Shown here: positions 34,031 to 36,190 of the stretch, piece after piece
Numbering within the stretch: the stretch's first letter is position 1
Layout of the letters: each line of letters opens with the position of its first letter
Assembly: GCA_937936275.1 (NCBI GenBank)
Contig: CALHCJ010000012.1
Span: forward strand, 1-41,568
Origin: an uncultured Flavobacteriaceae bacterium
Lineage (GTDB): Bacteria > Bacteroidota > Bacteroidia > Flavobacteriales > Flavobacteriaceae
Direction: 5' to 3'
DNA length: 41,568 nt
The notes under the pieces: generated by a model
Told to the model about the DNA's origin: nothing
Database searches by the model: none
What the model saw: only the letters and a program-made list of their open reading frames with translations
Program-made: the position numbers and the translations under genes

Positions 34031-34855
34031 TTAGTCAATCTCAACTCTACTTTCTACCACTTCTTTTATCGGCACCACTAGTTTTCCATTGATAGTTTTT
34101 ATGGTCACAAAAAGACTATCGATTGACTCTATTGTTCCTTCGACGTCACTAAATTTAATTTTATCTCCAATAGCATAACTTTTTCTTGCGTAGAAGGTCT
34201 TGAGCAAGTTGGAAACCACATCTCTTGAACCCAAACCAAATGCGATTGAAAATGCTAACAAGAATGATCCTAAGATCAACGTAAAATTACTTGTTATAAT
34301 GGTAGTATCAATACCCGCCTGATTCAAAGCGGTTATCGTTACAAAAATTAGTAAAATATAGAATACGATTCCGCTCACTAATTTAGAACCACCAAATCCC
34401 ATAGACTCAAAGACACTTACCAACATATTCTTGATAAGCTTTGCCGCAAATAGTCCTACCATAAATATCACCATGGCACTCAACAAAATAGGTAAATAGC
34501 GAAGTAGATTTGCGATCTCTGTTGAGATCACGGTTAACTCAGCTATATCAGCAGCTACTATTATAAAAACAAGTAGTAAAAGCCATTTAACAAAGCTTAA
34601 TAAGACCTTTTCAATATTAATCTTAATCTCACTTTCACCAAAAAGTTTTGCGTCATTTATCTTATCTGATAATTTTGAGACCTTGGCTACCCTTAGTACT
34701 TTTTTAAGAATAAATCTGATTATTTTACTAATGACCCATCCTATAAGCAATACTACGATTGCTCCTACTATTTTTGGAAAGGCAGAAGCAATATCCATTA
34801 GTATTGAGGATATCGTATTAAAACTTAGATCTTTCCATTGATTTACAGTTTCCAT
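34031..34855 (-). CDS. MscS-family mechanosensitive channel protein
   Basis: 274 residues. N-terminal hydrophobic helices ('IVGAIVVLLIGWVISKIIRFILKKVL' and two or three more) lead into the MscS pore and beta domain: 'TSNFTLILGSFLLAFSIAFGLGSRDVVSNLLKTFYARKSYAIGDKIKFSDVEGTIESIDSLFVTIKTINGKLVVPIKEVVESRVEI'. The long C-terminal alpha/beta vestibule of E. coli MscS is missing, as in small 'conserved TM helix/MscS' proteins. It lies in the inner membrane and probably releases solutes on hypo-osmotic shock. It is the last gene of a three-gene unit with the ECF sigma factor and the 64-aa protein, which makes envelope or osmotic stress a plausible trigger (inference). Confidence 0.88.
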   Translation of the reverse strand: METVNQWKDLSFNTISSILMDIASAFPKIVGAIVVLLIGWVISKIIRFILKKVLRVAKVSKLSDKINDAKLFGESEIKINIEKVLLSFVKWLLLLVFIIVAADIAELTVISTEIANLLRYLPILLSAMVIFMVGLFAAKLIKNMLVSVFESMGFGGSKLVSGIVFYILLIFVTITALNQAGIDTTIITSNFTLILGSFLLAFSIAFGLGSRDVVSNLLKTFYARKSYAIGDKIKFSDVEGTIESIDSLFVTIKTINGKLVVPIKEVVESRVEID

Positions 34856-34875: not shown

Positions 34876-35070
34876 TTAACGTTTGTTATCTGTATTCGTT
34901 TTCATCATTCCCTCAATTGTCGATTTATAATTGCACGTAAATAAAGATGCCATTTCCATAGCTAACTTAGCCATAGCAATGTCATCCATTACCTTCTTTT
35001 TCATATGAGCAGGTACATCTTTCATAGAAAGTTCCAACTCCTTAAAGGGATTTTGTTTTTTCTCAGACAT
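34876..35070 (-). CDS. 64-aa conserved-looking protein coupled to the ECF sigma factor
   Basis: MSEKKQNPFKELELSMKDVPAHMKKKVMDDIAMAKLAMEMASLFTCNYKSTIEGMMKTNTDNKR. I do not recognise a named domain. It is soluble, mostly helical by composition, with a Met/Ala-rich amphipathic middle ('KKVMDDIAMAKLAMEMASLF') and a single Cys. Its ATG overlaps the sigma-factor stop by one base (TAATG), so the two are translated in a coupled way and likely in fixed ratio. This is the usual position of an anti-sigma factor, but it has no membrane segment and no zinc-binding HxxxCxxC motif. A small cytoplasmic regulator of the sigma factor is the simplest guess; function unproven. Confidence 0.8.
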   Translation of the reverse strand: MSEKKQNPFKELELSMKDVPAHMKKKVMDDIAMAKLAMEMASLFTCNYKSTIEGMMKTNTDNKR

Positions 35071-35642
35071 TATGGAATTTTATTATAAATTTCTGCTATT
35101 CGAGCCTTAGCCCGTTTTAGCCTCATCTTTACTGCGCTTTCACCAATATCCATCAATACCGAAAGCTCCTTTATACTTACATCGTCTTGATATTTTAATA
35201 ACAATATCGTTTTATCTTCTGGATCAATCATTTCTAACGCCTTCTTTAGTTTATGTGAACGCATTTCAAGAATACTATCATCATCTAAATAAACCGAAAG
35301 CTTATTTGGTTCTTCTGCAATTGAATCTGACTTATCACTTATTTTTCTGCCCTTATTTCTATTCACGTAGTTTACGCAAAAATTGTATGTAAATGAATAC
35401 ACCCAACTAGAGAATTTAGATCTACCTTGAAAACTTCCTAGTTTCACAAACAACATTAAAAATACATCTTGGGTTAAATCTTCAGCCTCTGCCGCAGATT
35501 TGGCAAAACCATAGCATTTATTATAAATAACCTGAGAATACCGATCGTAAAGCGTTGCAAACAACATCGTATTATTGTTTTTAACAATTTCGCGAACAAG
35601 CTCCTCGTCAGTTAATAATTTCGACGCCGGTTCTGTTTCCAA
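35070..35642 (-). CDS. ECF-type RNA polymerase sigma factor
   Basis: 190 residues. Region 2: 'LFATLYDRYSQVIYNKCYGFAKSAAEAEDLTQDVFLMLFVKLGSFQGRSKFSSWVYSFTYNFCVNYVN'; region 4: 'LKKALEMIDPEDKTILLLKYQDDVSIKELSVLMDIGESAVKMRLKRAKARIAEIY'. Region 3 is absent, which defines the ECF class. It directs RNA polymerase to a small set of stress genes. No membrane anti-sigma of the FecR or RsrA type is adjacent; the coupled gene makes a 64-aa soluble protein, then an MscS-like channel. Upstream is the motif AGTGACT-N13-GGTGTCTTAA in promoter position, repeated in front of the 53-aa membrane protein gene, which suggests that the sigma factor activates its own operon. Confidence 0.95.
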   Translation of the reverse strand: METEPASKLLTDEELVREIVKNNNTMLFATLYDRYSQVIYNKCYGFAKSAAEAEDLTQDVFLMLFVKLGSFQGRSKFSSWVYSFTYNFCVNYVNRNKGRKISDKSDSIAEEPNKLSVYLDDDSILEMRSHKLKKALEMIDPEDKTILLLKYQDDVSIKELSVLMDIGESAVKMRLKRAKARIAEIYNKIP

Positions 35643-35670
35643 TTTTTAAATCTAGTTGTGGTTATTATCT

Positions 35671-35700
35671 TTAAGACACCTATTTTTTCAAATAGTCACT
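35671..35700 (-). promoter_or_regulatory. Putative ECF-sigma promoter of the sigma operon
   Basis: On the minus strand: AGTGACT, a 13-nt A/T-rich spacer, then GGTGTCTTAA, ending 28 bases before the sigma-factor ATG. The GTC core in the downstream element and the distance to the upstream element (about 15-16 bp from GTGACT to TGTC) fit ECF promoters. The same two elements with the same spacing recur at 36161-36190. Inferred, not tested. Confidence 0.65.
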
Positions 35701-35808
35701 TTTTTTAAAGATTTCAATAGTATAGCAATAAATAACCTGGCAATGTAATGAAAAGATCAATGTAATTTTTCACTAAAAAGAAGTACATCGTTAATTTTAA
35801 TAAAATAA

Positions 35809-35831
35809 AAAAGCCCCTGAGAGGGGCTTTT
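35809..35831 (-). terminator. Terminator after the 53-aa membrane protein gene
   Basis: AAAAGCCCCT-gag-AGGGGCTTTT: 10-bp stem, 3-nt loop, with T-rich flanks on both strands (minus strand: CTTTTTTATTTT). No plus-strand gene lies upstream, so it serves the minus-strand transcript from 36127. The 134 bases between that gene's stop and this hairpin (35832-35965) contain no ORF of note and make a long 3' untranslated region. Confidence 0.85.
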
Positions 35832-35965
35832 ATTGACTGAATTAAAAAACTAAGGGGGAACCTAATTTTGAATAGAAGATTAAACCTCCCAACCGAATTT
35901 CTAAAACAAAATTATCCTTATTTAATTCTAGTCAACATGAACAGTTGTGGTTAGTGTTTGTATAG

Positions 35966-36127
35966 TTACAACCGCTTCATTTTATGTGCTTTTTTAATGG
36001 GTTGAACAGATATTTCTTTCTTGAAAAAATAATCGAAAACCATTGTTGGTACAATAACTACTAGAGCTATTAAAAAGATGATAACTCCAGTTGTGAAAAG
36101 AAAGTTTGATAAAGTAAATTCGCCCAT
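35966..36127 (-). CDS. 53-aa single-pass membrane protein, below the ORF-track length limit
   Basis: The minus-strand ORF reads MGEFTLSNFLFTTGVIIFLIALVVIVPTMVFDYFFKKEISVQPIKKAHKMKRL. It has one strong membrane helix (about residues 9-32) and a Lys/Arg-rich C-terminal tail, which by the positive-inside rule should face the cytoplasm. It has an ATG start, a promoter-like ECF motif 34 bases upstream of the ATG, and a terminator downstream, so it looks like a real transcription unit. No known domain. It is probably a target of the neighbouring ECF sigma factor, perhaps an envelope-stress small protein or a membrane sensor for the sigma system (inference). Confidence 0.72.
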   Translation of the reverse strand: MGEFTLSNFLFTTGVIIFLIALVVIVPTMVFDYFFKKEISVQPIKKAHKMKRL

Positions 36128-36148
36128 AATAACGTTTCAATAATTTTA

Positions 36149-36169
36149 GTGTCTCAATTATTAAGACAC
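36149..36169. promoter_or_regulatory. Inverted repeat overlapping the -10 element of the 53-aa gene
   Basis: GTGTCT-N9-AGACAC, a 6-bp inverted repeat that covers the GGTGTCTTAA element of the promoter at 36161-36190. The copy in front of the sigma factor lacks the second arm. It could be an operator specific to this gene, or the arm could be chance. Confidence 0.35.
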
Positions 36170-36190
36170 CATAAATTTTATAAAGTCACT
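36161..36190 (-). promoter_or_regulatory. Putative ECF-sigma promoter of the 53-aa membrane protein gene
   Basis: Minus strand: AGTGACT-N13-GGTGTCTTAA, matching the sigma-operon promoter at all 17 positions of the two elements and in spacer length, while the spacers differ in sequence. It ends 33 bases before the ATG at 36127. Confidence 0.65.

Follow-up and report, generated by a model that had tools for sequence, protein, structure and literature searches.

The window, that is, the whole 41,568-nt stretch of DNA from a marine flavobacterium analyzed here, carries on its minus strand a compact locus made up of a gene for an ECF sigma factor, genes for a small soluble protein and an MscS-like channel protein, and an adjoining gene for a 53-aa membrane protein. 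The features are as follows.

34031–34855, minus strand: MscS-like channel protein, 274 aa, with conserved-TM-helix and beta domains (PF05552 in two stretches, and PF00924, above cut-off)
34876–35070, minus strand: p64, a 64-aa soluble helical protein, putative anti-sigma factor or adaptor, adjoining sigma in nearly all orthologous loci
35070–35642, minus strand: ECF sigma factor, 190 aa, TTG start (Pfam Sigma70_r2, 4e-13; r4_2, 5e-11)
35671–35700, minus strand: ECF-type promoter, AGTGACT-N13-GGTGTCTTAA (−35/−10), serving the sigma operon, exact match
35809–35831, minus strand: intrinsic terminator lying downstream of the 53-aa gene and ahead of the sigma promoter (10-bp stem, 5 G-C pairs, T-rich tail)
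35966–36127, minus strand: 53-aa single-pass membrane protein, second regulon member (hydropathy 2.79 over 19 residues)
36161–36190, minus strand: second promoter copy, 5′ of the 53-aa gene, exact match

The reading frames of 190, 64, 274, and 53 aa given in an initial annotation of this DNA were all borne out, as was its placing of the two promoter copies at these positions: the copies are identical at 17/17 element positions, both have spacers of 13 nt that differ in sequence, and they lie 28 nt from the sigma TTG (35642) and 33 nt from the ATG of the 53-aa gene (36127), respectively. The terminator indicates that the 53-aa gene and the sigma operon form two transcription units. Matches to sigma-70-type promoters were fewer in the region than in shuffled sequences, and were disregarded.

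The sigma factor matches PF04542 and PF08281 (Pfam) and TIGR02937 (NCBIfam) above cut-off, with regions 2 and 4 characteristic of an ECF (group IV sigma-70) factor. Its TTG start codon (35640–35642) recurs, in the alignment, in 124 of the 140 orthologue loci; the orthologues mostly have no ATG within 15 codons of this TTG, and the operon partners use ATG. A weak start codon kept across the orthologues may hold the level of sigma low. The ATG of p64 overlaps the sigma stop codon, and alignment showed N7, F9, P20, and V27 of p64 to be invariant. An AlphaFold model of p64 consists of helices, with a pTM (0.38) too low for a fold search; neither p64 nor the 53-aa protein matched a Pfam or NCBIfam family, and no relative of p64 was found in the viral contigs searched. 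In the 274-aa MscS-like protein, residues 115–266 are matched by MscS chains of the PDB, and the C-terminal alpha/beta cytoplasmic domain of MscS (PF21082) was not detected with Pfam. The genes for sigma, p64, and the MscS-like protein adjoin one another in nearly all orthologous loci, and likewise in 68 of the 79 named loci. Outside the Flavobacteriaceae, relatives of p64 sit between sigma and the MscS-like gene in three genomes from other families of the class.

The exact 17-position motif occurs twice in the 3.38-Mb genome assembly (85% complete), both times in the window; a third exact copy was not found in the assembly, and the motif read backwards had no exact match there. With up to three mismatches allowed, shuffled versions of the window yielded a mean of 0.09 matches, and two matches were seen in none of 100 shuffles. 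An alignment of the regions upstream of orthologous sigma genes, which the initial annotation had suggested as a check, revealed the motif to be conserved there, favoring its interpretation of the pair as promoters of this sigma factor. Indeed, the motif was present at 11 or more of 14 positions upstream of sigma in 50 of 63 orthologues, with approximately two expected from shuffles, and lay 8–42 nt 5′ of the sigma start in 73 of the 79 named loci, which were obtained in the sigma-alignment search and represent Zobellia, Maribacter, Polaribacter, Tenacibaculum, Winogradskyella, Aquimarina, and others. The consensus in these loci is GTGAC(T/C)TTT and GTGTCT(T/A)AA, separated by a spacer of 14 nt in 68 of the 73; an ECF-type promoter of its own, with a −35 element and a GTC-type −10 element at the usual spacing (GTGACY-N14-GTGTCTWA), is thus present 5′ of sigma. 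Some close relatives (L075, L076, and L077) have weak sites 5′ of their sigma gene. As read from this promoter, sigma probably activates its own gene.

The distribution of the motif follows that of the sigma factor. When 151 Flavobacteriaceae genomes, nearly every one from a different genus, were searched at the protein level, orthologues of sigma (E ≤ 1.6e-36, nearly all ≤ 1e-47) were separated by a gap from paralogues (E ≥ 1e-27), and an orthologue was found to be present in 58 genomes and absent from 93. The strict core GTGACT-N14-GTGTCTTA was detected in 42/58 sigma-positive and 0/93 sigma-negative genomes (Fisher p ~2e-24), and the relaxed core GTGACYT-N13-GTGTCTWA in 52/58 and 0/93 (Fisher p ~4e-34), counts that are not independent of phylogeny; six of the 58 sigma-positive genomes lack the relaxed motif. 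The core pattern read backwards, as a control, matched in one or two of the 151 genomes. Within the genus of the window, 5 of 15 genomes carry sigma, and the motif occurs in exactly those 5. Sampling of one genome per genus, together with this agreement within a genus, means that ancestry alone explains the co-occurrence poorly.

Two other explanations of the motif bear on these results. Duplication could yield two identical elements 490 nt apart, so that the paired copies might be a local duplication or a chance repeat devoid of regulatory meaning, but their spacers and flanks are not alike, two matches never arose in shuffles, and the same core precedes homologous genes in dozens of genera; this reading is refuted by the orthologue comparison, and its probability is negligible. 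It is also conceivable, although improbable, that the motif is the site of another regulator or of a different ECF sigma factor controlling the operon and other genes, with the sigma factor of the locus not recognizing it at all. Comparative genomics gives association rather than binding, and the sigma-positive genomes contain many further ECF genes. However, the spacing and layout of the motif are those of an ECF promoter, 20–60 nt 5′ of start codons; it is absent from the 93 genomes that have plenty of other ECF sigma factors but not this orthologue; it tracks this sigma exactly within one genus; and the conserved operon contains no gene for a transcription factor. The claim that the motif is the recognition site of this sigma factor is supported by its confinement to sigma-positive genomes and its conservation 5′ of the orthologues. 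An autoregulated ECF sigma factor with a GTGAC(T/C)T-N13-GTGTCT(T/A)A promoter and a regulon of its own is highly probable on sequence comparison. From what is known of the family, RNA polymerase carrying this sigma factor would recognize such promoters, and transcription of sigma from its own promoter would create positive feedback.

With up to one mismatch from the relaxed core, five sites were found in this genome, each 29–40 nt 5′ of a start codon: those of sigma, the 53-aa gene, a 269-aa MscS protein (contig C134), a 368-aa OmpA-family protein (C41), and a 391-aa TM-helix channel protein (C60). Matches with two or three mismatches were about as numerous as in the reversed control, and were kept only if the downstream gene is conserved; a weaker site lies 19 nt 5′ of a DUF3078 gene (C193) and has a counterpart in genome G051. 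The genome search proposed earlier returned near-matches before MscS, OmpA-like, and TM-helix-channel genes, and no further exact copies; likewise, the regulon first proposed (sigma and the 64-aa, MscS-like, and 53-aa proteins) stood as far as it went but was incomplete, at least the 269-aa MscS, 368-aa OmpA-family, 391-aa TM-helix, and DUF3078 proteins also belonging to it. Channel-type genes occur in three of the six transcription units of this regulon. The 269-aa MscS carries the C-terminal domain PF21082, and the 391-aa protein (L353, on contig C60 of genome G000) has three PF05552 stretches, with no MscS beta domain detected in it. For the orthologues of the OmpA-family protein, the motif (at least 12 of 15 positions, within 160 nt upstream) was present in 12/16 sigma-positive and 0/14 sigma-negative genomes (p = 2e-5). 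Sigma would thereby transcribe its own operon (sigma, the 64-aa soluble protein, and the MscS-like channel protein), the adjoining 53-aa membrane protein gene, and unlinked mechanosensitive channel and outer-membrane protein genes; very probably, one DNA signal lets it switch on both its own gene and those for several pressure-valve channels and outer-membrane proteins. The initial inference on sigma and its promoter was right and was understated, the promoter being sharp and the regulon wide. Separately, membership of the 391-aa PF05552 protein in the regulon is conserved within the genus (L353, L352, and L354).

In relatives, the motif was found 22–53 nt 5′ of homologues or look-alikes of the 53-aa gene (G051, G157, G026, G107, and G163; those in G051 and G157 are homologues), and this gene family has the upstream motif even when distant from sigma (L204 and L138). 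Recurrent targets of the 150 distinct sites in the fetched loci include sigma (29), DUF2853 (11), LysM/BON (10), the region before ruvX (8), MscS-type channels (7), M48 lipoprotein protease (6), DUF3078 (6), small membrane proteins (5), OmpA-like proteins (4), and RpoD (3), with MscL, an aquaporin, and LapA found singly. Some regulon genes are neighbors of sigma elsewhere: the OmpA-like gene in G026, an MscS gene in L260, and a DUF3078 gene in both L080 and L303.

About twenty sites without an evident target ORF are followed, 45–150 nt downstream, by a strong intrinsic terminator; on the motif strand, these include L135:1001, L213:501, L195:1501, L222:501, L152:1001, L163:1001, L199:1501–2048, L022:1501, and L227:501, among others. 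Some of them have AACATTAACCTTA or TTAATAGCTAATT in common, and L199 contains three tandem motif-terminator units upstream of ruvX. A comparison of the motif-terminator sites with Rfam matched no family. They are candidates for sigma-dependent small RNAs or, where ruvX comes next, for attenuators.

The many channels among the targets point towards hypo-osmotic or tension stress, and the best reading of the locus is that it controls an envelope regulon responding to membrane tension or hypo-osmotic conditions, the signal and the sensor role being inferred. By analogy, membrane stretch, most likely hypo-osmotic, would be sensed via the MscS-like protein, and p64 may hold or release sigma as an anti-sigma factor or adaptor; sigma, once released, would amplify itself and drive production of tension-relief channels and envelope-remodeling proteins. 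This chain of sensing by the MscS-like protein, gating by p64, self-amplification, and tension-relief output is, by analogy, nearly as probable as not. The main rival to the tension reading is a general envelope-stress response to altered lipid fluidity or outer-membrane damage, in which channels merely form a part, and it retains a substantial though lesser probability. OmpA-family, DUF3078, LapA, M48, and LysM proteins are among the targets, and membrane fluidity and cold shock also act on Pseudomonas aeruginosa SigX (PMC7641640); furthermore, DUF2853, the RuvX region, RpoD, and dodecin have no obvious osmotic role, which counts against a hypo-osmotic regulon. On the other hand, an MscS-like gene lies within the sigma operon itself, MscS, MscL, and aquaporin are recurrent targets, and half of the transcription units counted above in this genome include channel-type genes, all of which speak for the tension reading.

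The initial annotation knew of no described system with such a set of genes, but a closely similar one exists in P. aeruginosa SigX, CfrX, CmpX, and OprF (PMC8999054, PMC7641640). This is the one studied ECF system listed as governed by a mechanosensing complex, in which SigX is joined by CfrX, a soluble protein, CmpX, a channel, and OprF, a porin (PMC8999054); it is classified as ECF102 and described as a “mechanosensing complex” (PMC8999054; PMC7641640; PMC10965496). There, cfrX-cmpX are SigX targets, sigX is possibly self-regulated, sigX expression increases in hypo-osmolarity, and the promoter consensus is not precisely defined (PMC7641640). In both systems, the gene for an ECF sigma factor has as linked genes those for a small soluble partner and a channel of the MscS type, both under its control (probably so here); the sigma factor possibly regulates itself, and an OmpA-type outer-membrane protein belongs to the regulon (OprF there, the OmpA-family protein here). 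The best NCBIfam model for the window sigma is also SigX (PRK09640), at 95.6 bits, below the cut-off of 194, and among the 22 ECF genes of this genome it has the best score with that model. The flavobacterial system would work like SigX-CfrX-CmpX-OprF, matching it part for part; its membership in the SigX group is no more than possible, its sigma scoring well below the SigX cut-off. The differences are that Pseudomonas belongs to a different phylum; that sigma, p64, and the channel form one operon here, whereas cfrX-cmpX lie upstream of sigX; that CfrX has 84 aa and p64 64 aa; that the promoter is sharp here and poorly defined for SigX; and that the 53-aa membrane protein and the candidate small RNAs are additional here. 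A fuller picture, of a Bacteroidota mechanosensing ECF system equivalent to SigX-CfrX-CmpX but not derived from it, with a truncated MscS-like sensor, p64 as a soluble anti-sigma factor, the 53-aa protein as a modulator, an output of channels and sigma-dependent small RNAs, and the TTG codon keeping sigma scarce, is possible, though less probable than not.

The sigmaE regulon is another example of an autoregulated envelope sigma factor with small RNAs, namely MicA and RybB. The present system resembles it in autoregulation and in terminator-ended small RNAs, which are candidates here, and differs in that no membrane anti-sigma factor RseA or protease cascade was seen and in that the target set is centered on channels. 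In the available part of a study of Flavobacterium psychrophilum, motif SM6 is an ECF-type promoter in the same family that differs in having a CGT −10 box and serving type IX secretion genes, and GTGAC/GTGTCTWA is not among the six motifs described there (PMC9723704). A literature search found no description of the flavobacterial sigma system.

The locus would represent a second, distant lineage resembling a mechanosensing ECF system, with sigma and motif readable together in dozens of genera of marine bacteria. The sharp promoter, compact operon, and channel-rich regulon make the question of how tension reaches sigma directly testable, providing a test case for the conversion of membrane stretch into gene expression, and the motif promoter could serve as a tension reporter.

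Several variations were observed among relatives. In some close relatives (L074, L078, and L079), the −10 element upstream of sigma is GTTTCTWA instead of GTGTCTWA, possibly reflecting drift of sigma specificity. The motif also occurs 109–113 nt upstream of rpoD, the gene for the primary sigma factor, in three genomes (L132, L216, and L242), which might connect the one sigma factor with the other. Finally, a second sigma copy is present in some genomes (L081 in G139, L080 in G107, L115 in G052, L126 in G136, and L130 in G036), and G139 contains an additional p64 gene with its own motif, placed between sigma and the MscS-like gene.
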